Shown in pieces: positions 6,490 through 36,291 of a DNA stretch of 36,291 nucleotides; position 1 is the first letter of the stretch, and every line of letters starts with the position of its first letter. The position numbers and the translations under genes were made by a program. Under the pieces are notes generated by a model. It had not been told where the DNA came from and made no database searches. It worked only from the letters and a program-made list of their open reading frames with translations. This stretch comes from Verrucomicrobiota bacterium (GTDB taxonomy: Bacteria; Auribacterota; JABMQX01; JAFGEW01). Where the stretch lies: positions 1 to 36,291 of the forward strand of contig JAFGEW010000036.1 of the NCBI GenBank assembly GCA_016931415.1, in the 5' to 3' direction.

Positions 6490-6529
6490 GTTTCTGTACT
6501 CTCACCGTTCTGCTCAGGCGCGTTGCCGA

Positions 6530-6789: not shown

Positions 6790-6835
6790 GGTGGCCCCGG
6801 CACGACGCCGGGGCCCCTGCGCCGATCATCCTGTC

Positions 6836-7387: not shown

Positions 7388-7539
7388 TGTTCCTCTCCCG
7401 ATTCTGAAGGTGGATAATCCGTTTGTGTCGGCGATCTATCTGCACCCAGCCCTTGCCGCATTGCCGTATCCCCGGTCGCCAACTCCCCGGAGACGGTGTA
7501 ATCCTGCGAGGCCACCCGTTGTCTCAGCGCGAGAACTGA

Positions 7540-8064: not shown

Positions 8065-8181
8065 CTTTGCACTCTCCTCTGAACGGTCATTGCCTCCCTG
8101 TCCCGACTCCTTTCCGCCCCAATCTGTGACACCCTTCCGCGCCACAGGTTGTCTGAGACTGAATCAGTCACACCTCGCGCG

Positions 8182-8685: not shown

Positions 8686-8750
8686 CGTTGCCCTCCCATA
8701 TGCTCGCATTGTGTTGAATCACCTTCAGGACGCGTGCACCCGTGTCCCGC

Positions 8751-11719: not shown

Positions 11720-12195
11720 CAGTGCGTGATCCCCTCGTCCGGACAATCCGTCGTCTGGCTGTAGCGTGCACCTCGGGAAGCGTCCGTCTCGTCCCCCCGG
11801 CATCCGGGGCAAATGCCCTCGAACTCGATCCGATGGCCGAGGACCGTGTAGCCGCTCGATCTGGCAACGGTTTCTTCCATTCCGCTCAATCGTCCAAGAG
11901 GTGCGTCCTCGATGCGCCCACACCGCACACAACGAAGATGGTAGTGGTCTAACGTATCGCCGTCGTAGCGGCGCTCGACGCCCCCCGATTCCATCTGCCG
12001 GATGATGCCCTGGCGGCTCAGCGAATCGAGATTACGATAGACGGTCGCCAGACTGATCCGCGGCAGCCGCATCCTGACCCGGTCAAAGATCTCCCGAGCT
12101 GTCGGGTGTGCCATGCATGCGCGCAGTTCCTCCAGGATCACCCTTCGCTGGGGCGTCATTCGCATCGAGGTCTCATCTGGGAGCTTCTCAACCAT
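11719..12195 (-). CDS. perR: Fur-family regulator, PerR-like
   Basis: A 158-residue Fur-superfamily repressor. The winged helix covers about 10-75 (TPQRRVILEEL and ISLATVYRNLDSLSRQG). Structural zinc cysteines are Cys89/Cys92 (CVRC) and Cys129/Cys132 (CPGC). All five regulatory-metal ligands of Bacillus PerR have counterparts: His30 (AHPTAREIF), Asp78 (RRYD), His84 and His86 (DHYH) and Asp97 (CGRIED). In Fur proper the last is usually Glu. This points to a peroxide sensor, in keeping with the peroxidase and ferritin genes downstream. The start is uncertain: the ATG at 12195 gives a standard N-terminus but no ribosome site, while GTG 12267 or TTG 12246 would lengthen it. The stop overlaps the next gene by one base. 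Confidence 0.85.
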   Translation of the reverse strand: MVEKLPDETSMRMTPQRRVILEELRACMAHPTAREIFDRVRMRLPRISLATVYRNLDSLSRQGIIRQMESGGVERRYDGDTLDHYHLRCVRCGRIEDAPLGRLSGMEETVARSSGYTVLGHRIEFEGICPGCRGDETDASRGARYSQTTDCPDEGITH

Positions 12196-12199
12196 CTGC

Positions 12200-12214
12200 G
12201 AATGAGAACCATTC
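12200..12214. promoter_or_regulatory. Candidate Fur/PerR-type operator
   Basis: GAATG-AGAAC-CATTC is an inverted repeat immediately upstream of the proposed perR start, in the space shared with the divergent phosphatase gene. Read as a 7-1-7 Fur box (TGAGAAC-C-ATTCTTG against TGATAAT-n-ATTATCA) it matches nine of 14 arm positions. An autoregulatory site here would be normal for PerR. If perR starts further upstream (12246 or 12267), the site would be intragenic. Confidence 0.35.
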
Positions 12215-12374
12215 TTGCTGGCCTGGAGTTCCTGTGGGATCAACAAAGGCTGCCGCCTAGGATGCACAACGCCCCGCCGGGATGTCCGATTGGGGTATCC
12301 TTGATGCGGCTCAGACAGGTTGCGGCCTGGTGGAGGAACGCCGCGAGGCAGCCTGTTGTTGGAAGGATGACATT

Positions 12375-14504: not shown

Positions 14505-14711
14505 ATGCCGCCGATCGGCGTGCCCGATCGTGTGCTGTCGATTTCGCTCAGGAAGCGCAGCGTTCTGTGGCATACTATTTCCAGAACATACACGGCGCAG
14601 GAATGGGAACCACGGTCGCCGGAGAAGCGGAGCCCCCAATGAACGAGGTTGGCCGCCGCCAACGGCGACCGCGGCCCGCGCCGGAAAGACTCAGATTGCG
14701 GAGATCGAACC

Positions 14712-16655
14712 ATGAGGCATTGCATCAGCCACCGGCTCGGAGTTCTCCTGGTGCTCGCGCTTGCGGGCGTGCCGTTCGCTCTCGCTGATGGCGCGACGAC
14801 CCGCAACGTCCCCACCGCACTGTATCCGACGATCCAGTCGGCCATCATCGCCAGTACCAACGGCGACACTGTCGTCGTCGCCGACGGCGTCTACTCGGGC
14901 GTGGGGAATCGGAGTATCAACTTCTTCGGCCGCGACATCACCGTGCACTCGGCCAACGGCCCAGCCAACTGCACGATCGACGCCGGCGGTTTGGGGCGCG
15001 TCTTCGTCTTCGCCAGCGGCGAAACGGACGAGGCCGTCGTCGAGGGCTTCACGATCATCAACGGCGACTCGACCGGCCAGGGCGGCGCGTTCAGCATCGC
15101 CAACAGCAGCCCGACGATCCGCGACTGCATCATCTACAACTGCGAGGCCTCCTCGTCCGGCGGCGCCTTGGCGCTTGTGGCATGCAACTCGGTGTTCGAG
15201 AACTGCGTCATCGTCGGCAACGAGTCCTTGTACAACGAGGGCGGTGCGATCTCATGCACCGTCAGCAGCGCGCCGGTCTTCGTCAACTGCACGTTCGCCG
15301 ATAACCGCGCCTCCGCCGGCGGCGCCCTCTATGCGCTCGACAGCAACCCAACCTTCATCAACTGCATCCTCTACAACAACATCCCCGACGAGACGTCCCT
15401 GAACGGTTCCGCCGCGCCAACGTTCGACTACTGCGACATCGAAGGCGGCTGGCTCGGCGCGGGTACAGGCAACGTCGACGAAGACCCGACGTTCACCAAC
15501 CCCGGCATGTGGGACAACGGCACGTTCGCCAACGGCGACTACACGGCCCTCCCGGCCTCGCCGGTCATCGACGCCGGTCTTGGCGATGGTGGTGTTACCG
15601 TGCCCGCCCAGGACATCCTCGGCAACGACCGTGTCGACGACCCGACGACGACCAACACCGGTGTCGGCACGCCCGACTACGTTGATCTGGGCGCCTACGA
15701 GTTTCAGTCCGCGCCGCCCGAGCCTGTCTCGTACGCCGACATTGTGTGGCGCGAAACCACTACAGGCCAGATCGGTGTCTGGCTCATGCACGGCATGGCG
15801 CTGGTCTCCGGCGGTGTCACGGGCACGGTCGCTCCGGCCTCGGGCTGGGTGATCCAGGGCGTAGGGGACTTTGACGGCGACGGCAGAGCCGACATCCTGT
15901 GGCGTAACACGCTTACGGGCGACGTGGCGATCTGGATCATGAACGGCATCACGCTTGTGGGCGGCACGGTGGTCCAGAACGTGCCGCTCGCCGCCAGTTG
16001 GGAGATCGAGGGCGTCGGCGACTTCAACAACAACGGCAAGGATGACATCCTGTGGCGCAACACGGGCACGGGCGCAGTGGCCATCTGGCTCATGAACGGC
16101 ACGATGCTCGTCGGCGGTTACGCGGTGGCCACCGTCGATCCGGCCACCAACGACTACGAAATCCAAGCTGTCGGCGACTTCAGCGGCGACGGCCGTGCCG
16201 ATATTCTGTGGCGCGAAACCACAACCAACGAGATCGCCATCTGGCTCATGAACGGCACGACGCGGGGGCTGGCCAACGTCATCGGGACCGTCGCCGCCGC
16301 CTGGGTCATCGAGGGCGTCGGCGACTTCAATAACAACGGCAAGGACGACATCCTGTGGCGCAATTCAGTCACGGGCGCGGTCGGCATTTGGTTGATGAAC
16401 GGCCTGACCATCGTCAGCACCGGCACCGTCGCGACTGTCGATCCGGCCGCGAACGATTACGACATCCAGGGCGTCGGCGACTTCAGCGGCGACGGCCGCG
16501 CCGACATTCTCTGGCGCGAAACCACAACGGGCCACGTCGCCATCTGGATCATGAACGGCCTGGTCCGCACGAGCGCCGGCGTCGTGGCCGTCGTCGACCC
16601 CACCGCCAACGACTGGGAGATTCGCGGCGTCGGCGACTTCAACGGGGCGGAGTGA
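14712..16655 (+). CDS. Secreted beta-helix protein with six FG-GAP-like repeats
   Basis: A 647-residue secreted protein. The signal peptide is at about 1-25 (LGVLLVLALAGVPFALA). Residues about 30-330 form a right-handed parallel beta-helix of the polymorphic outer-membrane/pectate-lyase-like kind (YPTIQSAIIASTNGDTVVVA, VVEGFTIINGDS, PTIRDCIIYNCEA, FVNCTFADNRASAGG, SPVIDAGLGDGG). From 343 to the end come six FG-GAP/VCBS-type repeats, each starting DILWR and ending in GDFxGDGRAD or GDFNNNGKDD, probable calcium-binding loops. No membrane anchor or sorting signal is visible. The likely role is surface or extracellular binding; no catalytic motif is recognisable. The ATG at 14712 starts a clean signal peptide, although its ribosome site is weak. 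The 207 bp before it (14505-14711) hold no recognisable gene. Confidence 0.85.
   Translation: MRHCISHRLGVLLVLALAGVPFALADGATTRNVPTALYPTIQSAIIASTNGDTVVVADGVYSGVGNRSINFFGRDITVHSANGPANCTIDAGGLGRVFVFASGETDEAVVEGFTIINGDSTGQGGAFSIANSSPTIRDCIIYNCEASSSGGALALVACNSVFENCVIVGNESLYNEGGAISCTVSSAPVFVNCTFADNRASAGGALYALDSNPTFINCILYNNIPDETSLNGSAAPTFDYCDIEGGWLGAGTGNVDEDPTFTNPGMWDNGTFANGDYTALPASPVIDAGLGDGGVTVPAQDILGNDRVDDPTTTNTGVGTPDYVDLGAYEFQSAPPEPVSYADIVWRETTTGQIGVWLMHGMALVSGGVTGTVAPASGWVIQGVGDFDGDGRADILWRNTLTGDVAIWIMNGITLVGGTVVQNVPLAASWEIEGVGDFNNNGKDDILWRNTGTGAVAIWLMNGTMLVGGYAVATVDPATNDYEIQAVGDFSGDGRADILWRETTTNEIAIWLMNGTTRGLANVIGTVAAAWVIEGVGDFNNNGKDDILWRNSVTGAVGIWLMNGLTIVSTGTVATVDPAANDYDIQGVGDFSGDGRADILWRETTTGHVAIWIMNGLVRTSAGVVAVVDPTANDWEIRGVGDFNGAE
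15738..16652 (+). repeat. Six in-frame FG-GAP-like repeats of about 50 codons
   Basis: Units begin at 15738, 15891, 16044, 16200, 16347 and 16503 (51, 51, 52, 49, 52 and 50 codons). Each begins D-I-L/V-W-R and contains a GxWxMxG core (IWLMNG). The ends alternate: units 1, 3 and 5 end GDGRAD, while units 2 and 4 end NNNGKDD. This suggests growth by duplication of a two-unit block of about 300 bp. Nucleotide similarity between alternate units is visible, for example GACATCCTGTGGCGCAA at units 3 and 5. Confidence 0.85.
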
Positions 16656-16823: not shown

Positions 16824-17966
16824 TCATCGCTTGCGGGGCACGTGGATGGTGTCGTCCGGCCGGATCACTTCGCTGTCCGGCTCTTCCTCGTTCTCGATGT
16901 GCTCGACGTTGAAGGCCAGTGTCTTGACGGCACCGTCGGGTGACGAACGCAGGATACGCACGCGCGTCTTGTCCGCGTACTCGGTGAAGCCTCCGGCATC
17001 AACGATGGCCCGGTAGAGCGTTGTGTGCCGAACAAACTGCTTCTTGCCTGGGAAACGAACCTCGCCGTCAATGAAGTAGGCCAGTGACAGGGTGCTGACG
17101 ACGGGCTGCAGGCCACCCATGCCCGCTCCGGGTAGAAGCAGAAGGATATCCTCCTCGATCTCGAACGTCGTCTTGCCCGCCGCTTCGATCCTCCCGATGC
17201 GATCGAGTTTGATGAAGCCTTCGTCGTCAACGCGGACGTTGATGGGCCTGGGAGCGGCTTTGCCGAAATCCACGTGCAGGACGTCTCCTCGCGAGACACG
17301 ACGTGGCCCTGCCGGATCCTCGGGGGGATACACGTGGCAGTAGACGCCTTTGAGGGGTTGGCCGTCGGGAGCGACGAGGCGGGCGCTGAGCGCCCAACCG
17401 CCGCTGATCTCGTCGACCTTGAACAGGAACCGGTTCCGACCCTTGGTCAACATCACGTCGACCGAGTTCTCGTCCACGGTCAGCGGGCGCGGGACGTCGC
17501 TGCGGTAGATGAGCTTGCCGTTGTGCCAGATGGCCGCACCGCCGCCGCTGCCGAACCGGAGTTGCACACGCTGGGCGTCGTCCGATTCGACGTAGACGTG
17601 CGCATAGACGACCGCGTTTTCGGTCGCCTCGAAGAGTCCGCCCAGATCAAGCACCCGGCCCGTCGATTCGGCATGCCGCCACACTTTCCCGGCCGCTTCC
17701 TCGTGGCGCATGGGTGCCGCCGTCTTCTCGTCGGCAAATGCCGTCTCGAAGCACTGCCCCTCCCCCTTCCTGAACGGTCCGAGCACGAGCCAATCGGTGA
17801 CGTACCCCGCCGGCACACGGCGGAAGTCGAGATCGCTATTGAAGCTCCCCTCGTCGCGCCCGTGGGCGGCGTCGAGGGATCTTGGCTGCTGCACTCTGGC
17901 GCAGGACTGTGCGAAGAGACACACGCCCGCCGCCGCGACGAGTGCCGCCCACAGCCACGTTCGCAT
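16824..17966 (-). CDS. SLBB/polysaccharide-export-like secreted protein
   Basis: A 380-residue exported protein with an N-terminal hydrophobic segment (about 4-20) and a Cys at 22 that could be lipidated, though the lipobox (FAQSC) is poor. Residues about 50-215 form a beta-rich domain (TDWLVLGPF, GAAIWHNGKLIYRSD) of the kind seen beside sugar-binding domains. Residues about 225-285 resemble the Wza-type polysaccharide export domain (RGDVLHVDFG, VRVDDEGFIKLDRIGRIEAAG). Residues about 295-345 look like an SLBB domain (YFIDGEVRFPGKKQF, LYRAIVDAGGF), and the C-terminus ends DDTIHVPRKR. Export channels of this class work with Wzc-like kinases and glycosyltransferases, none of which is nearby, so the role is open. 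AGAGGAG lies eight bases before the ATG. Confidence 0.75.
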   Translation of the reverse strand: MRTWLWAALVAAAGVCLFAQSCARVQQPRSLDAAHGRDEGSFNSDLDFRRVPAGYVTDWLVLGPFRKGEGQCFETAFADEKTAAPMRHEEAAGKVWRHAESTGRVLDLGGLFEATENAVVYAHVYVESDDAQRVQLRFGSGGGAAIWHNGKLIYRSDVPRPLTVDENSVDVMLTKGRNRFLFKVDEISGGWALSARLVAPDGQPLKGVYCHVYPPEDPAGPRRVSRGDVLHVDFGKAAPRPINVRVDDEGFIKLDRIGRIEAAGKTTFEIEEDILLLLPGAGMGGLQPVVSTLSLAYFIDGEVRFPGKKQFVRHTTLYRAIVDAGGFTEYADKTRVRILRSSPDGAVKTLAFNVEHIENEEEPDSEVIRPDDTIHVPRKR

Positions 17967-17993
17967 GGCTACTACTCCTCTGGCTGGCCTTGC

Positions 17994-18079
17994 CTATTCG
18001 ACGGGGCCGAGGCCCATCTGTTCCTCGGAATGGGCGGCGAAGCGCCCCACGAGGTCGGCCAGCGACTCGCGGCACAGCG
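17994..18079 (-). pseudogene. Remnant of an S9 peptidase 3' end
   Basis: Read on the minus strand this stretch gives RESLADLVGRFAAHSEEQMG, then LGPVE and a TAG stop. The intact S9 peptidase at 21992-24190 ends ESLPDLMERFAAYFEEQMGL, then GPVE and stop. By eye about 73 of 86 bases match 21992-22077 in the same orientation, and some similarity continues past the stop. No start, upstream domain or catalytic residue is present, so it is a gene fragment. It lies between the SLBB gene and the isomerase gene and forms a direct repeat with the tail of the intact gene. Confidence 0.8.
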
Positions 18080-18185
18080 CCCTGCATTGGGATCTGCCAT
18101 GCAGCCAACACAAGGGCGGCATTGCGGAGCTCACCGGCAAGGTCATTCGTAAGAACGGCCGGTTTGTCCGCGCGGATCGGCCACA

Positions 18186-19937
18186 TTAGGTTCGCACGTA
18201 CCCCTTCATTGTAGCGAGCGGCGTGTCGGCCTGCTCCACCAGCGGACGAATGACATAGCGCCCCACGGTGGCGGGGACGATGAACGTCTCCGCATAGCGA
18301 ATCTCGAACGGCTCGAACGCATCTGTCGGGCTGGTCACCAGAGCCGCCTGGCCTTCGATCAGACAGAGCACATTCACGCCGCCGCCGCTGTTGTGTTCCA
18401 CCGGCTTCGTAAACCAGTGCCGGCGCGTTTCGATGAACTCGCGTTCGTGCAGACCCGTTCGCTCCTCGCGCCACCCATCCCCCTCCGCAACGAGCTGGAA
18501 CTGGTTAAGCAGCTGCTTCTGGACCACCGCTTCCTGGCACTCCCAGGCGATGTTCGCCGCCCCGTGTTCGAGATGAATCGGGCGCGGGTTGCCGTCCAGT
18601 CCCAGCCGGCCCCAGTCCCACAGCTTGAACGTAAAGATATACGTCGTGGCGGCGATCTCCAGAACCATGCAGTCCTTGCCGGAACTGTGTACCGTACCGC
18701 CGGGAATCAACGCGTGGTCATGCTTCTTGATCGGCCATGAGGCAGCGTAGCGGTCGGCGTCAAATGGAGCGCCGTTGTCCTGGGCGTGCTGGAGATCCCG
18801 CATCATGGCCTCTGGATCGACGCCTTCCTTGAGACCCAGATACAGCTTCGCGCCTGGGGCGGCCTCCATGAGGTAGTAGCTTTCATCCTGGGTGTAGTGG
18901 ATGCCGAACTTCTCCTGTATGTACTCCGTGATCGGGTGCACCTGGAGCGAGAGGTTGCCGCCGCCCATCGTGTCCAGGAAGTCGAAGCGTATAGGGAACT
19001 CGTCGCCAAACCGGCCGTGGACCGCTTCGCCGAGCAACTGGCGCGGCTGGTAGAAGACAAGGTTGATCGCCGGGATCTCGATCGGTACGTCGTTGAACTG
19101 CAACAGAAGGCTGTTCTCCTCGACGATGCAGTTGAAGCACCAGGCGTAGTTGGGCGCATCGCCGTCGAGCCCGCAGGTCTCCCGCAGCCACTGACCACCC
19201 CATGGTCCGGGGTCGAATACCGGCATGAGACTGAATGGGCGACGCGTGAGGTGGCGCAATCCCTGGCGCAGCGCATCGCCCGTGACAAGCTTGGGATCTC
19301 CCACGACCGTCGTGTCGAGCAGGTAGTCCCACCGGTCCATCTGCCGCTTCTTGTGGCGGTCACAGACGCGCCAGTCCACGAAGTACCCCCGCTTGTATTT
19401 CAGCGACCCTTTCAGCGTGAGGTTGCTGACGCCGAGGTTGCCGACTTCGTTGCGGCGATAGCGGAGCTGATGCTCCCAACGCGGCATGTCCGCGTAGATC
19501 AGCAGATCCGGATCGCACATCAGCGTCGCGCCGGGGCCGTAGACAAGTGTCAGTCCTGCGCAGCCGGCGGCGATGCGCCGGCGGGCTGCACCGAGCTTAT
19601 CCGCATCGAAGAAATCAGTGAGCTGCAAGGAGGTCAGGAAGCCGAATACGGGATCGTCGGTCAAGTCGCGCTGCACAAGGGCATCAACAACCTCGGATGA
19701 CTTCATGGCGGCTGTCGTCAACTCGACGTGGACGGGACGGAACGCCTCACGCACCAAGGCCAGCACCTCGTCATCGTGTAGCCCGGTGTAGCAGTCGACG
19801 GCGACCATGGCATTCTCCCGGTCCAGTCGGGCGGCGGCCGCGTGCAGTTCGGCCTGCACGGCGTCACGCCCGCGCCACGCGACGGTTTGATCAAACGCGA
19901 GCGGCACGGCCGTGAATCTGCGATACGAGCGGGTCAT
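18186..19937 (-). CDS. manA: Class I mannose-6-phosphate isomerase-like protein, long form
   Basis: A 583-residue cytoplasmic protein. The C-terminal half (about 255-583) is a class I phosphomannose isomerase cupin pair, interconverting mannose-6-phosphate and fructose-6-phosphate. Metal ligands are visible in SLQVHPITEY (Gln and His), DESYYLMEAAPGAKLYLGLK (Glu) and IPGGTVHSSGKD (His), with the family motif LWDWGRLGLDG. The N-terminal 250 residues are extra compared with the usual 300-400. They (VAVDCYTGLHDDEVLALVRE, RRIAAGCAGLTLVYGPGATL) look like a degenerate nucleotide-kinase-like fold without a P-loop. The ATG overlaps the ROK kinase stop by four bases, so the two are probably co-translated. 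Another sugar phosphate is possible as substrate. Confidence 0.82.
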   Translation of the reverse strand: MTRSYRRFTAVPLAFDQTVAWRGRDAVQAELHAAAARLDRENAMVAVDCYTGLHDDEVLALVREAFRPVHVELTTAAMKSSEVVDALVQRDLTDDPVFGFLTSLQLTDFFDADKLGAARRRIAAGCAGLTLVYGPGATLMCDPDLLIYADMPRWEHQLRYRRNEVGNLGVSNLTLKGSLKYKRGYFVDWRVCDRHKKRQMDRWDYLLDTTVVGDPKLVTGDALRQGLRHLTRRPFSLMPVFDPGPWGGQWLRETCGLDGDAPNYAWCFNCIVEENSLLLQFNDVPIEIPAINLVFYQPRQLLGEAVHGRFGDEFPIRFDFLDTMGGGNLSLQVHPITEYIQEKFGIHYTQDESYYLMEAAPGAKLYLGLKEGVDPEAMMRDLQHAQDNGAPFDADRYAASWPIKKHDHALIPGGTVHSSGKDCMVLEIAATTYIFTFKLWDWGRLGLDGNPRPIHLEHGAANIAWECQEAVVQKQLLNQFQLVAEGDGWREERTGLHEREFIETRRHWFTKPVEHNSGGGVNVLCLIEGQAALVTSPTDAFEPFEIRYAETFIVPATVGRYVIRPLVEQADTPLATMKGYVRT

Positions 19938-25028: not shown

Positions 25029-27899
25029 TCAGTCATCTTCCTCGGCCGAGCCCTCGTCGCGGATCAGCTCGACTTCGATGCAGATCGACTCGCTCTTGCG
25101 CACGCCGTCGACGACCTGGAACACGATGTCATAGTCGCGCAGCCTTCTGGGGTCGCTCGGTGCCGCGCCCTCGTAGATCGCCTTCTCGCAGAAACGGTCC
25201 TCGTCCTTGACCGGCCCGTCGGCATGCCAACGGAACAGAAGCGGCTGGCCCTCGGGATCGTAGCTCGCCGAGCCGTCCAACCGAATCATCTCACCCGGCC
25301 TGACGCGGATCCTTCGAGGCCCATCGAGCTTGGCCACCGGAGCCAGGTTCTGCTCGCGGATCGCCTCCGGCACCGGCTTGCGCACCAGGGGCGTCGGCTC
25401 AGAGTGCGGCTTGAGGCTCGTGCGGATCGGGTAGACGCCGCGGTCCTTGCCGCCCTCGAAAAACGCCACGTTCATCATCGAGATCGTTAACCAGTGGAAC
25501 TCGGTCTGGTCACCGCTGACGATCTTGAGCAGCAACATCGAGTCGGTGCCCCAGCTCCCGGGCGTCGCCGCGATGTCCCCGGTAGCAGTGCCGAACGGGT
25601 TCCATACCTCGACCGAACCATCCACCTCATCGGTTTCCGGATCGTCCCAGTTCGGGTCCGTCTTCTTGGGGAAGACGAAGCACCCCCGCTTATCGGTGTG
25701 TCCCTTGAACTTGGGCCGGTCGGCAATAAGCCGCGCATCGGCCTGTCGGGTGTCGACATTCGTCACCTGGTAGCAGTACACAGCGGCACCGACGAGGGGC
25801 TCATCATTCAGGTCGAGCACGTACAGCTCGTGCCGACTCGCCGCAATCAGACGACCGTGAATACCCCAGAACGCCACACCACGCTGACCGAGGTAGTACT
25901 GTATCTGGCCCGCGTTCGCCGGATGCAGCCACAGATGAACCATGTCCATGAGGCTGCTGTAGCCCGTGCCGCACGCGACACCCAGCTCGGGCGAGAACAG
26001 AATGCTGGTGCCACGGCGCCCAAGCGTCGGCAGGAGTGGTCCGCCCGCATAGGGCGTGCCGTCCCCGTCGGCAATCAGGATGAGGTTCGAGCTGCACGCA
26101 TACCCGTACAGGTCAGGCAGCGAGAGCATCGTGTGTCCCAACTCGTGGACGACGGGCGACCAGATCGCGTCAAGGTGGCTGCCATCGTCTTCGCCGATCG
26201 GGAAGCCGCCGTCCTGGTACTCGAGATGCCACTCGTACGGGCGGTTGGGCCCCGTACCGGGGATGAAGTCGATGAACTCATCGACGCGGATGTCCGTCTC
26301 TACCCCGACCGGGCTCGTGGTCGAATAGACGGCCCGACGCAGCATGATGCGCAACTGGTCGCTCTGGGTCCGCATCCAGTCGAAGAGACTAAAAGAACCA
26401 ACAAGGTTGATGCGCTTCTCTGCATAGAAGCGCTTGTAGACATCGTCCACATAGCCCCAGATCACTTGACGGCCCGTGTTGATCTCAACAAGCTGGTTGT
26501 TCGCCTCGCAGATCTCGGCGACACCATCTTCGGGGTCAACAGTAACCCGGACCCAGACGGGCTCCTCGGGCCACGTCCACTCGAACTCGACGGTCGTCTC
26601 GGTGAACGGTTCGAGTGCCATGTCGATCATCACCTGTCTACTCAGGACCGGCCGTTCGTCAGCATCGAGGGCAAAGTTACGGTTCGAATCCGGGATTAGC
26701 TCAAACGTGACGGGCACACCGGCCGGCGTCGGCTCAAAGCCATAGTTGGCAATGTGTGCCACCGACTTCACCACGTCGCCCGGCACGGGATAGCCCTTGA
26801 TCGAATACTTGTGGTAACGCGGGAGGCGTTCGACGACATAGAGATCGAAGTCCGGCTGCTCGAGAGCAATCACCTCGAACGTCTCGCTCGCTCGAAGACC
26901 GCGGAACTCGGCCGTGACCGTGCAGCGCCCAAGGGCATGGCCGAAGACTCTGCCCTGCGCATTGACCGTAGCGACCGCTTCGTCAGACGTCGACCACGCA
27001 ATAAGCGGCTTCGCGTCGAATGTCGCCCAGTTGCCGTAGCCGTGATCGTCCACGTACTCGGTGATCCGCTCCCACCGCCCGTTGAGCTGGGCCTGAACGC
27101 CGTACTGCTTGTGGTAACCGTTGACGACGCGCCGGTCGGACGGCACGCCGTGCGGCTCCGGATCAATGGCGATCTGCGTATATGGCGCCGTGCGGAAGTA
27201 GTCACGGTAGACAACCTCGAGCGGCCGGCGCTCCGTCGGGGTTTCCGGACCGTAACGCATGACCAGCTCATCCATGGCGGCTTGCGCCGTCTCGTCGCCG
27301 ATCCAGAGCCTCGCATCGCTCATTGCGTCGGGATCGAGGAACGCATTCCCCGAAGCGATCGGCCCGTCAACGGCCTCCTTGTCAATCCACAACGGCACCC
27401 CTGCTGGAATGCCCCGCCCGTTCGAGAACCAGGCGATGGCGACGTGATGCCACTCGCCGGCTTTCCAGTGCGACACGTCGGCGCGCGCGACGGTCGACTT
27501 CGCTGGCGAGGCCATCACATAGCGCAACGTATTCTTGGCCGATTTCTCCAGGAGCAACCCGTTCCTCTCTGGATCGCCGATGTGCAGCAGCCGGTGCGTC
27601 TTGCCGTCGTTGCCGTTCCAGTCAGGGCGAATCCAGAAGCTGATATAACCCTGCTCCTGGAACAGCACGGGGTGCTCTACCGGCACCCCCTTGGTCAACT
27701 GCACGGCCGCGCCCCAGCCGCCCTTGGCCGCCGGCAACACCGGATCGGGCGCCGCAACCTTCACGCTCTCGTCAATGGCCGCGTCAATGGCCGCGTCGGT
27801 GAACCACGCGACCGCCGCCCGCGGCGGTTCCAGCGCGCTGCCGGTGCTGCAGACGAACACGGCGACCGCGCACAAGCCACATGCGATGCGAAGCATCAT
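25029..27899 (-). CDS. Array paralog 1: secreted LamG-Big2-CARDB zincin-like protein
   Basis: A 956-residue exported protein with a signal peptide (about 1-23, ACGLCAVAVFVCSTGSA). A LamG/concanavalin-like domain spans about 80-215 (GYISFWIRPDW, WKAGEWHHVAIAW, DARLWIGDE). A Big2-like Ig domain lies at about 285-345 (IAWSTSDEAVATVNAQGRV), and a CARDB-like domain at about 352-475 (VVKSVAHIANYG, EICEANNQLVEIN). A zincin segment follows, with HELGHTMLSLPDLYG at 585-599 and a conserved SLMDMVHLWLHP further on. A PKD-like C-terminal domain spans about 860-950 (IRLDGSASYDPEGQPLLFRW). HExxH followed by PDLY resembles M6 (immune inhibitor A) metallopeptidases, so secreted proteolysis is plausible but unproven. 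GAGGAGGAG lies five bases before the ATG at 27899; a TTG further upstream is less likely. It is the most divergent copy and the last in transcription order. Confidence 0.85.
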   Translation of the reverse strand: MMLRIACGLCAVAVFVCSTGSALEPPRAAVAWFTDAAIDAAIDESVKVAAPDPVLPAAKGGWGAAVQLTKGVPVEHPVLFQEQGYISFWIRPDWNGNDGKTHRLLHIGDPERNGLLLEKSAKNTLRYVMASPAKSTVARADVSHWKAGEWHHVAIAWFSNGRGIPAGVPLWIDKEAVDGPIASGNAFLDPDAMSDARLWIGDETAQAAMDELVMRYGPETPTERRPLEVVYRDYFRTAPYTQIAIDPEPHGVPSDRRVVNGYHKQYGVQAQLNGRWERITEYVDDHGYGNWATFDAKPLIAWSTSDEAVATVNAQGRVFGHALGRCTVTAEFRGLRASETFEVIALEQPDFDLYVVERLPRYHKYSIKGYPVPGDVVKSVAHIANYGFEPTPAGVPVTFELIPDSNRNFALDADERPVLSRQVMIDMALEPFTETTVEFEWTWPEEPVWVRVTVDPEDGVAEICEANNQLVEINTGRQVIWGYVDDVYKRFYAEKRINLVGSFSLFDWMRTQSDQLRIMLRRAVYSTTSPVGVETDIRVDEFIDFIPGTGPNRPYEWHLEYQDGGFPIGEDDGSHLDAIWSPVVHELGHTMLSLPDLYGYACSSNLILIADGDGTPYAGGPLLPTLGRRGTSILFSPELGVACGTGYSSLMDMVHLWLHPANAGQIQYYLGQRGVAFWGIHGRLIAASRHELYVLDLNDEPLVGAAVYCYQVTNVDTRQADARLIADRPKFKGHTDKRGCFVFPKKTDPNWDDPETDEVDGSVEVWNPFGTATGDIAATPGSWGTDSMLLLKIVSGDQTEFHWLTISMMNVAFFEGGKDRGVYPIRTSLKPHSEPTPLVRKPVPEAIREQNLAPVAKLDGPRRIRVRPGEMIRLDGSASYDPEGQPLLFRWHADGPVKDEDRFCEKAIYEGAAPSDPRRLRDYDIVFQVVDGVRKSESICIEVELIRDEGSAEEDD

Positions 27900-28003
27900 G
27901 TCTCTCCTCCTCAAGGAAGCTGTGTTCGCGTTCTGTCTCTCCCGACGGCGAGACCACTCTTCCGGTTGCAGAAGGCGGGCACTCCGTCCGTATCGGCGGC
28001 CGC

Positions 28004-30862
28004 TTACTCGGCGTCCTCCGCCTCGGACGCCTTGGCACCATCGCCGACGACGTGCAGCGTGATCCAGATCGGTTCGGACTCCCGGATCCCGTCGATGACG
28101 TAGAAGGCGATCTCAAAGTCGCCCTCCTCCTCGAGCGGCGCCCGGCAATCGAAAACGGGCTTGCTGCCGAAGCGCTCCTCGCGATCGAATTCATCCGGCG
28201 CCTGCCAGCGGTACGCGAGCGGCTGGCCTTCCGGGTCGAAGCTGGCCGACCCATCGATGCGGACCGACTCGCCCATCTTGGCCGTCAGTTCGAGTTCCCC
28301 GTCCGGCTCGCTGGGCTGAATGTCGACCTTGGCAACCGGCCTCAAGTTCTTCTCGCGGACCGCGTCAGGCACGGGGTGCCGGATAATGGGCGTCTCGCCG
28401 TCAAACGGTGTGAGACTGGTGCGGATCGTGTAGATGCCCCAGTTCTTGTGGCCGCTGAGGAACGCCTCGTTCATCATCGTCAGCGTCAGCCAGTGGAACT
28501 CGGTCTGGTCGCCGCTGGCAATCCGAAGCAGCATCATGCCGTCGGCGTCAAAACAGGTCGGCGTGGCTATGATCGGACCGTCCGGCATGGCAAACGGGTT
28601 CCACAACTCCACCGATCCTTCCACCTCGTCGGTGTCGGGTGAGTCCCAGTCCCTGTCCGTCTCCCCCGGAAACACGTAGCGGCCTTCCTCATTCGTATGG
28701 CCGACGTATTTGGCGCGGTCAGCGAAGAACTTCGCCGCGCCGTCCTGGATGTGCGCTTGTTTCGCCTGATAGGCGTACACGGCGGCGCCGGCGAGCGGTT
28801 CGTCGTTGGCGTCGAGTACGAGCAGCTCATTCCGACTCGTCGGGATCAGCAGCCCGTGCACGCCCCAGAACTTGTCGCCGCGGCAACCACGGAAATACTG
28901 CACCTGGCCCGCAAACGCCGGATGCATCACCATGCGGCAGTTGTTCATCAAATAGCCATAGGAGGCGCCGCACTCGACGCCCTCGGCAGGCGATACGATC
29001 GTCGTCCGGCTGCGGTTCAGCTCGGGCACCAGCGGCCCGCCCGCATACAGCTTCCCGTTCGCGTCGGTCACGAGCACGCCGCGCGCATGCACGGGATGGC
29101 CGTACAAGTCGGGCAGCGCGAGCATCGTGTGCCCAAGCTCATGCACGGTGCCCGCCATGATCCAGTCGAGATCCTCGTCGCTGTCGAGGCAGATCGGGTA
29201 ACCGCCCTCATGGTACTTGCTGTGCTGGTCATACAGCCGGCCTTCGGGACACGGCGTATCGAAGCACATCACCTCGCCAATTCGGGTATCATCAAGCACG
29301 CCAACGGGGCTCGTCGTCGGATAGACCGACTCGCGCAGGATGAGCCGCAGGCGGTCGCTCTGCGCACGCAGCCAATCGTAGTAGCAGAACGAACCGGTCA
29401 GGTTCATGCGCTTCCGATTGTAGACGTTCGCCGGTTCGGTATCGTTGTAAGCCCAGATCATCGACCGGGCCGTGTTGAGCTCCACGAGCCGGTTGTTCGC
29501 CTCGCTGATCTCGTCGACCCCGTTGCCTGGATCGACCGTCACCCGCACCCACACCGGCGTGTCCGGCCACGTCCACTCGAACTCGACCGCCGTCTCTTCG
29601 AGCGGCTCAAGGGCCACGCGTGTCGTGGCACGCTTCGTAGGGATCGCTCGTTCGTCCGCGTCGAGCCGGTAGTTGCCGTTCGCGTCGGGGATCAGCTCGA
29701 ACGTCACCGCCACGCCCGACGGCGCGGGCATGAATCCGAAGTTGGCGATGCGCGCGACCGACTTGACGGTCTCCCCCGGCGCGTGATGGTTTTTCACCGC
29801 CATCTCGAGGTACCGCGGCAGCAGCTCGACAACGTAGAGAACAAGGTCCGGCTGCTCCATCGGGATGACGCTCACGTCGTAGCTCGCTTTCAGACCGTGA
29901 AACTCCGCCGTGAGCGTACAGCGCCCAACTTTGTGGCCCGAGACACGCCCCTCTTCGTCGACGGTGGCAATCGTCTTGTCGGACGTGGACCAAGTGGTGA
30001 ACGACTTCGCGTCGTAATGCGTCCAGTTCCAGTATGCGCCGCCAACGTACTCGATCATCCGTTCCCAACGCCCGTTGAGCTTGCCTCTAAGACCAAAAGG
30101 TTTCGAGTACCCGTTGACGACACGCCGGTCGGCCGGCACAGCGTGCGGCTCGGCATCGATTTCGATAGCCGTGAACGGCCCTGTGCGGAAGTAATCGCGG
30201 TACACAAGGTCCACGGACGGACGCTCCTTCGCGCGCATGACCAGCTCGTCCATCGCCGCCTGCGACGTCTCGTCGCCGATCCAGAGCCGCGCATCGTCCA
30301 TCGCCGCCGGATCGAGGAACGCGTTCCCTGAGGCGATCGGCCCATCCACGGCAACCTTGTCGATCCACAGCGGCAAGCCGACAGGTATCCCGACGTGATT
30401 CGTGAACCAGCCAACGACCACATGGTGCCACTCGCCCGCCTTCCAGTGCGACACATCGGCGCGCGCGACGGTCACCTTTTCGGGCGACGCCATGACGTAG
30501 CGCAGCATGTTCTTCGCCGACTTCTCGATGAACAGCCCGTTCTTCTCCGGGTCGCCGATGCGCAGCAGGCGATGGACCTTGCCGTCGTTGCCGTCCCAGT
30601 CAGGCCGAATCCAGAAGCTGATGTAGCCCTGCTTCTGTGCCAGCACGGGATCCTCGACCGGCACCGCCTTGGTCAACTGCACCGCCGTGCCCCAACCACC
30701 CTTGGCCCCCGGCAATGCCGCCTCGGGCGCCGGGATCTTGACGCTCTCCTCTACAGCCGCGTCAGTGAACCACGCCACCGCCGTCTGTGGCGCCTCCAGC
30801 GCGCTGCTCGTACCGCACAACAGCACCGCAGCCGCGCACAATGCGCATACAATCCGCAACAT
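28004..30862 (-). CDS. Array paralog 2: secreted LamG-Big2-CARDB zincin-like protein
   Basis: A 952-residue paralog with the same domain order as its neighbours. The signal peptide is CALCAAAVLLCGTSSA. The LamG-like part contains GLFIEKSAKNMLRYVMASPE, the Big2-like part TTWSTSDKTIATVDEEGRV, and the CARDB-like part ends EISEANNRLVELN. The zincin motif is HELGHTMLALPDLYG (from residue 574; HELGH at 29129-29143). The later conserved segment reads YLMNNCRMVMHP, where copy 1 has SLMDMVHLWLHP, so any metal ligand in that stretch may differ. The PKD-like end has IDGSASFDPEGQPLAYRW. Its ribosome site is ordinary (AGAGG about nine bases upstream). The spacer to copy 1 is 104 bp. Confidence 0.85.
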   Translation of the reverse strand: MLRIVCALCAAAVLLCGTSSALEAPQTAVAWFTDAAVEESVKIPAPEAALPGAKGGWGTAVQLTKAVPVEDPVLAQKQGYISFWIRPDWDGNDGKVHRLLRIGDPEKNGLFIEKSAKNMLRYVMASPEKVTVARADVSHWKAGEWHHVVVGWFTNHVGIPVGLPLWIDKVAVDGPIASGNAFLDPAAMDDARLWIGDETSQAAMDELVMRAKERPSVDLVYRDYFRTGPFTAIEIDAEPHAVPADRRVVNGYSKPFGLRGKLNGRWERMIEYVGGAYWNWTHYDAKSFTTWSTSDKTIATVDEEGRVSGHKVGRCTLTAEFHGLKASYDVSVIPMEQPDLVLYVVELLPRYLEMAVKNHHAPGETVKSVARIANFGFMPAPSGVAVTFELIPDANGNYRLDADERAIPTKRATTRVALEPLEETAVEFEWTWPDTPVWVRVTVDPGNGVDEISEANNRLVELNTARSMIWAYNDTEPANVYNRKRMNLTGSFCYYDWLRAQSDRLRLILRESVYPTTSPVGVLDDTRIGEVMCFDTPCPEGRLYDQHSKYHEGGYPICLDSDEDLDWIMAGTVHELGHTMLALPDLYGHPVHARGVLVTDANGKLYAGGPLVPELNRSRTTIVSPAEGVECGASYGYLMNNCRMVMHPAFAGQVQYFRGCRGDKFWGVHGLLIPTSRNELLVLDANDEPLAGAAVYAYQAKQAHIQDGAAKFFADRAKYVGHTNEEGRYVFPGETDRDWDSPDTDEVEGSVELWNPFAMPDGPIIATPTCFDADGMMLLRIASGDQTEFHWLTLTMMNEAFLSGHKNWGIYTIRTSLTPFDGETPIIRHPVPDAVREKNLRPVAKVDIQPSEPDGELELTAKMGESVRIDGSASFDPEGQPLAYRWQAPDEFDREERFGSKPVFDCRAPLEEEGDFEIAFYVIDGIRESEPIWITLHVVGDGAKASEAEDAE

Positions 30863-30912
30863 GCCTTTATGCCTCTTCAGAGAAATTCCGTCTTGCCTTC
30901 CAGGGCAACCGT

Positions 30913-33789
30913 CTATTCGACGTCCGCCGATTCGACCGCATCGCTGTCATCGGCCACCACGTGGAGCTTGACCCGGATCGTGTCGGACACCCGGACGCCG
31001 TCGATAACGTAGAACAGGATCATGAAGTCACCCGTCTCCTCGGTTGGCGCGTGGCCCTCGTAGACGGGTTTATCGGAGAAACCGCCCTCCGGCCCGAACG
31101 GCCCCTGAGCATGCCACCGGTAGACGAGCGGCTGCCCCTCCGGATCGAAGCTGGCCGAGCCATCAATACGAATCCGGTCGCCAGCCTTGACGGTCAGCTC
31201 GGGTTGCGCGTCGGCCTCGGCGGGTTCGATGTCGATCTTGGCCGCCGGCTTGAGGTTCGTCGTGCGGATCGTCTCCGGCACCTCGCGCCGTACGAGCGGT
31301 GTCTCGCCTTCGGTGGACGTGAGGCTCGTGCGGATCGTGTAGACGCCCCAGTTCTTGGCGCCCTTGAAGAACTCCTCGTTCATCATGGTCAGCGTCAGCC
31401 AGTGGAATTCGGTCTGGCCGCCGCTGACGATCCTGAGCAGCATCATGCCCTCGGCGCCAAAGCAGTTGGGCGTGAACGCCGTGTCTTTGGTCTTCAGTCC
31501 GAACGGATTCCACGCGTCGATAGCGCCGTCGGCCTCGTCCGTCTCCGGCGAGTCCCAATTCTCGTCGGTCTGGCCGGGGAATTCATAACGCCCCCCGGCA
31601 TTGGTGTGTCCCATGTACTTGGGCCGGTCGGCGAAGAACTTCGCCGAGCTGTCCTCAGCGTCGACGTTCGTCGTGTGGTAGCAGTATACGGCGGCACCGG
31701 TGAGTGGCTCGTCGTTGGCGTCGAGCACAAGCAGCTCGTGGCGGCTCGTCGGGATGAGCAGCCCATGGATGCCCCAGAAGCGCGGACCGCGTATGCCGCG
31801 GTAGTGCTGGACCTGCCCGGCGTGCGCCGGGTGCAGCCACATGTGGCAGTATACCATCAGAGGCGAGTAGCCGGTGTAGCACTCGACCTGTGCCTCGCCC
31901 GGCGACCCCATGATGCCGCCCCATTTCGTGACCTCGGGCAGCAGCGGACCGCCGGCATAACGCTCGCCGTTCTCGTCGGTGACGAACACGTTGCGCGCCA
32001 GACAAGGATGACCGTACAGGTCGGGCAGTGAGAGCATCGTATGCCCCAGCTCGTGCACGAGGCCTGAGCAGATGACCTGCAGGAAGTGGTCGGAGTTCTT
32101 GTCGCCGAGGGGGAAACCGCCGTCGTGATACTCGCGGTGCACGTCGAAGGGGCCGCCCTCCGAGTGGTCCGGGTCGTACGCAAGGAACTCGTCGACGCGG
32201 ATGTCGTCGAGCACACCCACCGGGCTCGTGGTCGGGTAGACAGCCTCGCGCAACATGAGTCGCACGCGCTCGCTCTGGGTGCGCATCCAGTCGTAGTAGC
32301 TGAACGAGCCCGTCAGGTTGATGTGCCGCTCGGCATGGTCATGCTTGAGCACGTCGGCAACGTAGCCCCAGATGACCGGCTTGGCGGCGTTGAGCTCGAC
32401 GATCTGGTTGTTCGCCTCGCAGATCTCGCCGACGCGATTGCGCGCGTCGACCGTTACCCGCACCCAGACGGGTTCTTCGGGCCACGTCCACTCGAACTCG
32501 ACCGTCGTCTCCTCGAGCGGATGGAGCCTGTGTGGAATCGTCGCCTGCTCTCGCAGCACCGCCCGTTCGTTCGCGTCGAGCCGGTAGTTGCCGTTCGTGT
32601 CGGGAATGAGCTCGAACGTAACCGGCACGCGAACCGGCGTCGGCTCGTAACCGAAGTTGGCGATGCGCGCCACCGACTTGACGACGTCGCCCGGCGCCGG
32701 CGCGTTCTTGAGCGCCATCTCCTTGTAGCGCGGCTGGCGCTCGACGACGTAGAGGTCCAGGTCCGGCTGCTCAACGGGGATGACCTGCACGGAGTACGTC
32801 GCCGTGAGACCGTGAAACTGGGCCGTAAGCATGCAGCGACCGCGGGCATGGCCTTTGACGAGGCCGTTCTCGTCGACGGTCGCGATCGTCTCGTCGGACG
32901 TCGACCACGTGATGAACGGCTTTGCGTCGAAGTACGTCCAGTTGCTGTACTCGCCGACGAACTCCGTCATGCGCTCCCACCGGCCGTTGAGCTGGCCCTG
33001 GAGCCCGAACTGCTTGTGGGCGCCGCGCACCACACGCCGGTCGGACGGCACCGCGTGCGGCTCGGCGTCGACGGCGATTCCCGTGTACGGCGCGGTGCGG
33101 AAGTAGTCCCGGTAGACGAGCTCGATCGGCGCCCCCTCCTTCTCGGTCTTTGGCTCGGGGTGCATGACCAGTTCGTCCATCGCCGCTTCCGAGGTCTCGT
33201 CGCCGATCCAGAGCCGCGCGTCATCCATCGTGGCCGGATCGAGGAACGTGTTTCCCGAAGCGATCGGCCCGTCCATGGCCCACTTGTCGATCCACAGCGG
33301 CAAGCCCATCGGGATACCGTCGTGGTTCGTGATCCACGCAATGGCGACGTGGTGCCACTCGCCCGCCTTCCAGCCCGATACGTCGGCACGCGCGACGGTG
33401 ACCTTCCCGGGCGACGCCATGACGTAGCGCAGCATGTTCTTCGCCGACTTCTCGATGAGCAAGCCGTTCTTCTCCGGATCGCCGACGCGCAGCAAGCGAT
33501 GAACCTTGCCGTCGTTGCCGTCCCAGTCAGGCCGGATCCAGAAGCTGATGTAGCCCTGCCTCTGCGTCAGCACGGGATCCTCGACCGGCACCGCCTTGGT
33601 CAACTGCACCGCCGCGCCCCAGCCGCCCTTGGCCGCCGGCAATGCCGGATCGGGCGCCTCGACCTTCACGCTCTCGTCAACAGCCGCGTCAGTGAACCAC
33701 GCCACCGCCACCCGTGGCGGCTCCTCCGCACTGCTTGCGCCGCGGGTCAGCACTACAGCCGCGCACAACACCCATACGATACGCCACAT
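30913..33789 (-). CDS. Array paralog 3: secreted LamG-Big2-CARDB zincin-like protein
   Basis: A 958-residue paralog. The signal peptide is WVLCAAVVLTRGASSA, followed by the array-wide VAWFTDAAVDESVK. The domain order is as in copies 1 and 2. The zincin motif is HELGHTMLSLPDLYG (from residue 579; HELGH at 32041-32055), with YSPLMVYCHMWLHP downstream. From the motif to about 31320 it is nearly identical to copy 4, while its CARDB-like region is closer to copy 1 (EEPVWVRVTVD, EICEANNQIVELN). The PKD-like end has IDGSASFDPEGQPLVYRWHA. GAGGG lies directly before the ATG, with further AG-rich sequence upstream. Only 50 bp separate its stop from copy 2, so the genes are probably co-transcribed. Confidence 0.85.
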   Translation of the reverse strand: MWRIVWVLCAAVVLTRGASSAEEPPRVAVAWFTDAAVDESVKVEAPDPALPAAKGGWGAAVQLTKAVPVEDPVLTQRQGYISFWIRPDWDGNDGKVHRLLRVGDPEKNGLLIEKSAKNMLRYVMASPGKVTVARADVSGWKAGEWHHVAIAWITNHDGIPMGLPLWIDKWAMDGPIASGNTFLDPATMDDARLWIGDETSEAAMDELVMHPEPKTEKEGAPIELVYRDYFRTAPYTGIAVDAEPHAVPSDRRVVRGAHKQFGLQGQLNGRWERMTEFVGEYSNWTYFDAKPFITWSTSDETIATVDENGLVKGHARGRCMLTAQFHGLTATYSVQVIPVEQPDLDLYVVERQPRYKEMALKNAPAPGDVVKSVARIANFGYEPTPVRVPVTFELIPDTNGNYRLDANERAVLREQATIPHRLHPLEETTVEFEWTWPEEPVWVRVTVDARNRVGEICEANNQIVELNAAKPVIWGYVADVLKHDHAERHINLTGSFSYYDWMRTQSERVRLMLREAVYPTTSPVGVLDDIRVDEFLAYDPDHSEGGPFDVHREYHDGGFPLGDKNSDHFLQVICSGLVHELGHTMLSLPDLYGHPCLARNVFVTDENGERYAGGPLLPEVTKWGGIMGSPGEAQVECYTGYSPLMVYCHMWLHPAHAGQVQHYRGIRGPRFWGIHGLLIPTSRHELLVLDANDEPLTGAAVYCYHTTNVDAEDSSAKFFADRPKYMGHTNAGGRYEFPGQTDENWDSPETDEADGAIDAWNPFGLKTKDTAFTPNCFGAEGMMLLRIVSGGQTEFHWLTLTMMNEEFFKGAKNWGVYTIRTSLTSTEGETPLVRREVPETIRTTNLKPAAKIDIEPAEADAQPELTVKAGDRIRIDGSASFDPEGQPLVYRWHAQGPFGPEGGFSDKPVYEGHAPTEETGDFMILFYVIDGVRVSDTIRVKLHVVADDSDAVESADVE

Positions 33790-33840
33790 CCCTCTCAGCC
33801 CTCCTCAGAGCTACTGCGTCTTGGCTTTGCAGGCAGTCGT

Positions 33841-36291
33841 CTACTCCGCGCTCGCCGATCCGGCCGCCCCGTCATTCGCAGCGATCACCTTCACTTTGAC
33901 CCGGATCGTGTCGGACGCCCGGATCCCGTCAATCACGTAGAAAAGAATCTGCGTCTCGCCCGGCCGGTCCGGGGCTTTGCCTTCGTAGGCCGGCTCGTCG
34001 GAGAAGCTGTACTCGCGCTCGAACGGCCACTGCGCGTGCCAGCGATACACAAGCGGCTGCCCTTCGGGGTCCGAGCTGGCCGAACCATCAATGCGAATCG
34101 ACTCGCCGGCCTTGACCGTGATCTCCGGCTGCGCGTCCGGCACGGCAGACTCGATGTCGATCTTGGCCACCGGCTTGAAGTTCGTCGTGCGGATCGCTTC
34201 CGGCACCTCGCGCTGCACGAGCGGAGTCTTGTCCCGCCCGGACCGGGGCTTGAGACTCGTGCGAATCGTGTAAACGCCCCAGTTCTTGGCGCCCTTGAAG
34301 AACTCCTCATTCATCATCGTCTGCGTCAGCCAGTGGAACTCGGTCTGGCCGCCGCTGACGATCTTGAGCAGCATCATCCCCTCGGCGCCAAAGCAGTTGG
34401 GCGTGAACGCCGTGTCTTTGGTTTTCAGTCCGAACGGATTCCACGCATCGATGGCGCCGTCGGCCTCGTCCGTCTCCGGCGAGTCCCAGCCTTCATCGGT
34501 CTGGCCGGGGAATTCATAACGCCCCTCGGCATTGGTGTGGCCCACGTACTTGGGCCGGTCGGCGAAGAACTTCGCCGAGCTGTCTTCCGCGTCCATGTGC
34601 GTCGTGTGATAGGCGTACACGGCGGCGCCCTTGAGCGGCTCGTCGTTGGCGTCGAGCACGAGCAACTCGTGGCGGCTCGTCGGGATGAGAAGCCCGTGGA
34701 CGCCCCAGAACCGTGGCCCGCGCAAGCCGCGGTAGTATTGCACTTGGCCCGCGTGGACCGGGTGCAGCCACTGGTGGCAGTACACCATCAGAGGCGAGTA
34801 GCCGGTATAGCACTCGACCTGCCCCTCGCCCGGCGACGCCATGATGTTGCCCCATTTCGTGACCTCGGGCAGCAGCGGCCCCCCCGCGTAGGGCTCGCCG
34901 TTCTCGTCAGTCAGGAACACGTTGCGGGCGAGGCACGGGTGCCCGTACAAGTCGGGCAGCGCGAGAATGGTGTGGCCGAACTCGTGAATGATCGCCGAGT
35001 CGATGGCCATGAAGTTCACCGGCTCGTTGACCGGGAAACCGCCGTCGTAGTACGGGCATTCCGTCTCCCACTCCTCGTCCTGCCAGCGCGTCTCGCCAAG
35101 GGCGAGCCGCGTGAACTGGTCGGTCCGAAATGCGTCTTGAATGCCCTCAGGCGTTATCTCATCGTAGACGGCCTCGCGCACGAGATGATCGAGACGCGCC
35201 TTCTGCCCGTTAAACCAGTCGTAGTAGCAGAACGAACCGACGTGATTGATCACGCGCTCGTCGTAGCACTTCGCGAGCACTGCCGGATCGTAACCGAAAT
35301 GGACCGGCCGCGCATTGCTGAGCTCGGTGCGCTCGTTGTTCGCCTCGCAGATCTCGGAGATCCTGTTCCGCGGATCAACCGTCACCCGTGTCCACACCGG
35401 CGCGTCCGTGTACGTCCACTCGAACTCGACCTCCACCTCATCGAGCGGCGCGAGCTCGCGGTCAATGGTCTTGCGCTCGACCTTCATCGGTCGTTCCGAC
35501 CTGTCGAGCACGAAGTTGGCGTTCGAGTCAGGCACGTACTCGATCTGCACGACGGCGCCCTTCGGCACCGGCCTGTAGCCGTAGTTGGCGACGCGAGCGA
35601 CAAACGTGATCGCATCGCCCGGCGCGGGGCGGTTCTTGAGATCCTCCCAGTGGTAACGCGGTAGCCGCGAGACGCACATGAGCACCAGGTCGGGCTGATC
35701 AACGGGGATGACGCGCACGTCGTATGTCGCCTTCATCCCGCGGAACTCGGCCGTCAGCGTGCAGCGGCCGACGGCGTGGCCCTGGACCATGCCGTTAGCG
35801 TCTACTGTGGCGACCGTCTCGTCGGACGTGGACCACGCAATGAACGGCTTTGCATCGAAATCGGTCCACTGGCCGTAGCGCACGTCGAAGTTCGTCACCG
35901 GCTCGAAGCGGCCGCCGAGCTCGGCAAGCAGCCCGAACTGCTTCTGCGCACCCTCGACGACGCGCTTGTCCGAATGCACAAAGCACGCCTCGTGGTTGAT
36001 GGCAATGGCCGTATAGGGCGCTGTGCGGAAGGAGTCCCGGTAGACGAGCATGAGAGGCGTCTCCTTCTCCTCGGTCGTCGGCGCCGCGCGCATGACGAGC
36101 TCGTCCATGGCCGCTTCCGAGGTCGCGTCGCCGATCCAGAGGCGTGCATCGTCCATCGCCGCCGGATCGAGGAACGTGTTGCCCGAAGCGATCGGCCCGT
36201 CCACGGCAACCTTGTCGATCCACAGCGGCAGGCCCGTTGGAAGACCCTCGTGATTCGGGAACCAGCCAACGACCACATGGTGCCACTCGCC
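33841..36291 (-). CDS. Array paralog 4, cut by the right edge
   Basis: The frame is open from the stop at 33841 to the window end. About 816 residues are visible, and the signal peptide and first part of the LamG-like domain are missing. It enters at GEWHHVVVGWF and continues through LamG (ARLWIGDATSEAAMDELVMR), Big2 (IAWSTSDETVATVDANGMV) and CARDB (VARVANYGYRPVPKG, EICEANNERTELS). The zincin motif here is HEFGHTILALPDLYG (HEFGH at 34972-34986). The protein ends in the PKD-like IDGSASSDPEGQPLVYRWHA. Its CARDB-like region is the most divergent of the four (VQIEYVPDSNANFVLDRSER), yet the segment after the zincin motif nearly equals copy 3. The 51-bp spacer to copy 3 resembles the copy 2/3 spacer. 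Confidence 0.85.
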   Translation of the reverse strand, partial: GEWHHVVVGWFPNHEGLPTGLPLWIDKVAVDGPIASGNTFLDPAAMDDARLWIGDATSEAAMDELVMRAAPTTEEKETPLMLVYRDSFRTAPYTAIAINHEACFVHSDKRVVEGAQKQFGLLAELGGRFEPVTNFDVRYGQWTDFDAKPFIAWSTSDETVATVDANGMVQGHAVGRCTLTAEFRGMKATYDVRVIPVDQPDLVLMCVSRLPRYHWEDLKNRPAPGDAITFVARVANYGYRPVPKGAVVQIEYVPDSNANFVLDRSERPMKVERKTIDRELAPLDEVEVEFEWTYTDAPVWTRVTVDPRNRISEICEANNERTELSNARPVHFGYDPAVLAKCYDERVINHVGSFCYYDWFNGQKARLDHLVREAVYDEITPEGIQDAFRTDQFTRLALGETRWQDEEWETECPYYDGGFPVNEPVNFMAIDSAIIHEFGHTILALPDLYGHPCLARNVFLTDENGEPYAGGPLLPEVTKWGNIMASPGEGQVECYTGYSPLMVYCHQWLHPVHAGQVQYYRGLRGPRFWGVHGLLIPTSRHELLVLDANDEPLKGAAVYAYHTTHMDAEDSSAKFFADRPKYVGHTNAEGRYEFPGQTDEGWDSPETDEADGAIDAWNPFGLKTKDTAFTPNCFGAEGMMLLKIVSGGQTEFHWLTQTMMNEEFFKGAKNWGVYTIRTSLKPRSGRDKTPLVQREVPEAIRTTNFKPVAKIDIESAVPDAQPEITVKAGESIRIDGSASSDPEGQPLVYRWHAQWPFEREYSFSDEPAYEGKAPDRPGETQILFYVIDGIRASDTIRVKVKVIAANDGAAGSASAE

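Follow-up and report, generated by a model that had tools for sequence, protein, structure and literature searches.

At the right-hand end of the window (the whole 36,291-nucleotide stretch analysed, which is the entire contig C36 of its genome), the segment 25029-36291 encodes four colinear paralogues on the minus strand, with 56–67% identity to g2 among the window copies. This segment had been noted in a preliminary description as a tandem array of at least four related genes, to be counted beyond the contig end. When the rest of the genome to which the window belongs (G000; 134 contigs, 98.9% complete) was searched, three further complete copies were found on contig C48, which opens with an N-terminal fragment of the same family. 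The fragment ends ...ADVSHWK and the truncated g4 of the window starts GEWHH..., where the paralogues read ADVSHWKAGEWHH; from this paralogue reading across the join, we estimate the gap between C36 and C48 at about 2 bp. Because the only open-ended family pieces in the assembly meet at C36/C48, the simplest reading is that seven head-to-tail genes (g1–g7, Table 1) span the two contigs across an inferred junction, possibly with extra unassembled copies. The array itself thus stands as first described, and its count rises to seven. The g1 open reading frame opens with a TTG at 27914, and an ATG at about 27899 leads into the apparent signal peptide MMLRIACGLC....

Table 1. Genes of the array and features within them (residue numbers are those of g3)
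Feature	Location	Strand	Description
g1	25029..27899	(-)	secreted LamG-like/Big_2/CARDB/putative M6-like catalytic/transthyretin-like/PKD-like protein; HELGHTMLSLPDLYG; Met-turn YSSLM
g2	28004..30862	(-)	paralogue, 952 aa; HELGHTMLALPDLYG
g3	30913..33789	(-)	paralogue, 958 aa; reference (P0001) for residue numbering
g4	33841..>36291	(-)	paralogue truncated by contig end; g7-like/g3-like mosaic; HEFGHTILALPDLYG
g4 N-terminus, first ~145 residues	G000:C48:2-436	(-)	N-terminal family fragment opening contig C48
g5–g7	C48:469-3366, 3440-6229, 6299-9163		complete copies, found by search of the window's own genome
Transthyretin/carboxypeptidase-regulatory-like beta domain, g3 residues ~684-835	31285..31740	(-)	weak Pfam match and fold match
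Active-site helix HELGH + PDLYG, g3 residues ~573-596	32002..32073	(-)	corresponding position in g4 is where its mosaic tract ends
Hypervariable stretch, g3 residues 533-574	32068..32193	(-)	immediately N-terminal to the active-site helix; identity averaging 27%, pN = pS

The seven genes share one orientation and are separated by 32 to about 105 bp. Upstream, 607 bp lie between g7 and a divergent AhpC/redoxin gene; downstream of g1 come a SpoU methylase and a DPP-IV-like peptidase. A scan for promoters and terminators gave no promoter-like site and four terminator-like sites, none of which exceeded chance. Further along C48 (locus L015), three large neighbouring proteins (11660-13456(-), 14047-16341(-) and 17167-19377(-)) share a common layout without Pfam matches and carry HG...GC/AC motifs as in caspase-fold peptidases; next to the array, they may represent another family expanded in tandem. 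The same contig has, at 10539-10943, a short DNA repeat that reads (T)GKMPVLRGL / ARCPCYED in several frames and looks like an interspersed palindromic-type repeat. Elsewhere in the window, a beta-helix protein with FG-GAP repeats (14649-16655(+)) adjoins a SpoIIE/HAMP sensor gene (12282-14504).

The copies have signal-peptide-like N-termini, as judged by eye. Behind these, the preliminary description had read LamG-like, Big2-like and CARDB-like domains, a segment with the HExxH motif and a PKD-like end. In the window copies, Big_2 and CARDB passed their Pfam cutoffs. The LamG assignment was borderline, since Laminin_G_3 passed its cutoff in g6 but fell short of it in g1–g3 (E 2e-4 to 9e-4), and the PKD-like assignment was weak (PKD_4, E 0.0016–0.02). 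The transthyretin/carboxypeptidase-regulatory-like domain of Table 1 had been missed.

The copies are 49–69% identical to g3, and dN/dS values of about 0.3–0.5 among them (Nei–Gojobori) indicate overall purifying selection. Identity is 46–67% elsewhere in the proteins as against 27% in residues 533–574, where pN equals pS, perhaps through relaxed constraint or faulty alignment. In a tree, g1–g4 and g7 formed one clade and g5–g6 another, with no resolution along the backbone; such a tree is compatible with a single origin of all seven copies. The g4 gene is a mosaic, g7-like in residues ~231–596 and g3-like in the remainder: at sites informative between g3 and g7, it was g7-like at 255 of 340 inside residues 231–596 and at 85 of 426 outside (chi2 232; at most 19 in shuffles). 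The similarity of g3 to g2 stays about the same along the whole sequence, which makes g4 the probable recipient. The block takes in the CARDB region, the hypervariable stretch and the active-site helix, and it is a doubtful but conceivable extension that its conversion on a constant recipient scaffold produces new specificities.

These comparisons bear on why the copies are kept. Selection for dosage, one of two causes suggested in the preliminary description, is unlikely because the copies are no more alike than this; variation in specificity, the other, better fits the divergence and the g4 mosaic. An explanation that we consider rather unlikely, though worth weighing, is that the genes were duplicated neutrally or for dosage and did not diversify in function, the mosaicism following simply from their similar sequences. 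It is in keeping with the default recombination of tandem repeats and with the single copy in most genomes that have homologues. However, the level of identity and the dN/dS values argue that all copies have been retained while differing, whereas dosage would favour near-identical copies.

The signature HE[LFY]GHTxxxxPDLYG, followed by a YxxLM Met-turn, is kept in 7/7 copies, and the window copies have HE(L/F)GHT and then PDLYG exactly as first described. HExxH with an Asp at a spacing found in M6 peptidases is thus present in all seven, the Asp being a putative zinc ligand. We aligned the array with relatives from other genomes, belonging to several phyla. H579, E580, H583, P589, D590, Y592, Y641 and M645 (g3 numbering) were invariant in all 27 sequences covering the region, including, at the sequence level, the Tyr and Met of the downstream Met-turn. 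The metzincin glycine expected for M6 is replaced in every one of them, by Ala (17), Ser (8), Trp (1) or Glu (1). In the widest family PD[LV]Y is not universal, since a more distant Armatimonadota paralogue outside the 27 (L096:8176-11265) has the sequence HELGHRTLVTWD. The putative catalytic domain would be a small one of metzincin type, at about residues 466–680.

The full-length model of g3 (mean pLDDT 78.6) consists of beta domains and then a helical segment. It has a long backing helix (498–521), a strand (530–537) and an active-site helix (575–585) bearing HELGH; confidence is low for the lower subdomain, where PDLY and the surroundings of the Met-turn lie, and pLDDT is <50 in parts of it. 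A core-only model had a mean pLDDT of 63, and in Foldseek it matched the transthyretin-like domain only. The full-length Foldseek search was swamped by beta-sandwich proteins and is useless for the catalytic domain. No zincin was among the listed matches of the two models, in which the lower subdomain is poorly predicted; the sole metzincin-bearing chain among the matches listed, PAPP-A (8d8o), had a TM-score of 0.15 and is not evidence. A sequence search of solved structures with a seven-protein profile returned CARDB, Big_2 and similar domains, and no peptidase. The preliminary description had named two outcomes that would tell against its reading, a non-zincin fold burying HELGH and a known non-enzymatic family with a coincidental HExxH. 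Neither was encountered, and the lower half of the active site is too poorly predicted for the model to speak in favour of a zincin.

The same data allow us to weigh an unlikely alternative, in which the products are non-enzymatic surface or matrix proteins (adhesins or glycan binders) with a structural zinc site, so that the array varies binding and not cleavage. In its favour, binding-type beta domains make up most of the chain, the glycine of metzincins is absent and the models predict the active site poorly. On the other hand, 27/27 sequences across several phyla retain the two His, the Asp, the Tyr, the Met of the Met-turn and the catalytic Glu, which would be needless in a purely structural site. 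The adhesin role offered in the preliminary description as an alternative to a peptidase is therefore less likely as a sole role, since no copy has lost its catalytic residues.

As to the family of these putative peptidases, no curated model covering the enzyme domain scored above its cutoff in the curated libraries. In each of the four window copies, TIGR03296 (M6) was the sole peptidase model to fall on the motif, far below its cutoff and over the motif only (E 0.011–0.064; 13–16 bits vs a cutoff of 110.8). The other peptidase match, M36, fell in the PKD-like end. Neither PF05547 (M6) nor Pfam M64 (PF09471) was listed for the window proteins at E<=1. A profile of the array core aligned over 192 columns with that of a family combining CARDB with HExSHxxGxIDxY (hhalign P 3.5e-20), the profile of this latter family aligned with that of M6 (P 1.8e-8) and the array profile alone aligned with M6 over the motif only (P 1.5e-6), each P-value being that of a single comparison. 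Members of the CARDB/HExSHxxGxIDxY family occur at L016-L021 in the window's own genome and at L030, L045 and L048. They are without a curated peptidase model and have TSP3, beta-helix, NHL, F5/8C or HEAT partners, some with a carboxypeptidase-regulatory-like domain following.

With a joint HMM, all nine M6 ORFs took the top 9 places of 268 (E 3e-7 to 3e-3) and a single M64 protein (L094) came at rank 11 (E 0.055), a ranking that partly reflects the motif because the nine M6 ORFs had been chosen by their HExxH. The reverse search ranked members of the unannotated families first. In this comparison, which covered M6 and one M64 protein, the nearest relative by sequence profile was M6; M64 as the parent family was set aside as the weaker match. 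The earlier doubt that the spacing to the PD departs from M6 has been removed: four proteins that pass the PF05547 cutoff (L079, L080, L081 and L088) have an additional residue in the zinc motif and carry the long-spaced HExGHxxx(G/R)LPDLYD, with Asp at motif position 12. M64 igalysins share this long spacing in their HExxHxxxGxxD, which supplies an Asp ligand (PMC12237041); the array has the spacing and the Asp and lacks the glycine. That the array is of M64 igalysin type, its HExxHxxx[AS]xxD being the igalysin spacing, is very improbable: the igalysin IgAse is similarly multidomain and L094 scores just under the M6 set, yet M6 proteins rank higher and possess the same spacing, Pfam M64 is silent, and the motif closes with PDLY in the manner of M6, against ADEY in M64.

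These results support the view that the array proteins are divergent, unannotated relatives of M6 peptidases. The suggestion of a secreted peptidase resembling M6 has gained from the motif and Met-turn conserved in 27/27 sequences and from profiles favouring M6 over M64, and falls short of the curated M6 cutoffs. We use the label 'M6-like, not M6' because the M6 match is below cutoff, the ranking is influenced by the motif and the long spacing is common to M6 and M64.

Relatives with the full architecture were found in metagenome-assembled genomes (MAGs) labelled Armatimonadota, Planctomycetota (including Phycisphaerae) and Bacteroidota. Homologues are rare and patchy, mostly with one or two copies per genome. 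Those with the full architecture occurred in 8 of 201 sampled genomes from the phylum of one Armatimonadota MAG (G079) and in 2 of 294 from that of a Phycisphaerales MAG (G082); in the window's own phylum they were found in one genus, with 1–2 full copies per genome and up to three pieces. G079 gave ten matches, two of them adjacent. At its loci L041, L042 and L096, some proteins have a short motif, HEVVHGLETPD or HELTHGLETPD, and some ORFs are of 1685–1819 aa. The same domain order in tandem had been proposed as a thing to look for elsewhere; among the genomes examined, the long array is present in that of the window only. In the literature searches, neither this architecture nor this array was found described. 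Single-copy Phycisphaeral homologues adjoin GH127, GH43, GH106, CBM9 and LamG genes, which suggests that glycans or glycoproteins of plants or algae are acted upon; no glycoside-hydrolase neighbours were found at the window's own locus.

Taken together, we think it probable that the array encodes secreted M6-like Asp-ligand metzincins with glycan-binding-type modules, whose specificity has been diversified by tandem duplication and gene conversion. Seven consecutive multidomain proteins would be exported by the Sec route, each built around one small catalytic domain in which H579 and H583 would bind zinc, D590 would provide the third ligand, E580 would act as the general base and M645 would form the Met-turn. 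The lectin-like LamG, Big_2, CARDB, transthyretin-like and PKD-like modules may anchor the enzyme to surfaces made of glycan or glycoprotein. Tandem duplication in this lineage would have given rise to the array, with later divergence under overall purifying selection. The copies would exchange blocks by gene conversion, the stretch before the active-site helix being the freest to change. The likely outcome would be a set of proteases, co-transcribed perhaps as one operon, with differing preferences among extracellular proteins or glycoproteins.

On this view, two families that lack curated models would be linked to each other and related to M6, both made up of putative secreted metzincins with an Asp ligand and thinly distributed among several environmental phyla. 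The long motif spacing is shared by M6 and the igalysins. With its divergent copies and its mosaic, the seven-gene array is a ready-made series of putative enzymes for testing directly what the hypervariable stretch and the binding modules do. Like M6 (immune inhibitor A/thuringilysin; PF05547, TIGR03296), the nearest family by profile, the proteins appear to be secreted and have HExGH...PDLY with its Asp and a Met-turn, and four bona fide M6 proteins have the long-spaced motif. Unlike M6, they lie below all curated cutoffs, have Ala or Ser at the glycine position and carry a small putative catalytic domain behind LamG-Big_2-CARDB, with no M6 propeptide recognised in the array proteins. The M64 igalysins, such as the IgAse of Thomasclavelia ramosa (PMC12237041), are multidomain secreted or surface enzymes whose Asp ligand is spaced like the Asp of the array, but they match less well by profile, keep the glycine and have different accessory domains. 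The CARDB/HExSHxxGxIDxY family has a homologous catalytic core and, in several members, the carboxypeptidase-regulatory-like follow-on domain; it differs in its short spacing and its partner domains, and it occupies single loci in the window's genome and in Armatimonadota and Chloroflexi MAGs. The GP63 (M8 leishmanolysin) arrays of Leishmania (PMC6367770) are eukaryotic and belong to another peptidase family; the analogy is one of evolution and layout, in that they too are tandem multi-copy genes, there for surface metzincins, with mosaic intragenic recombination.
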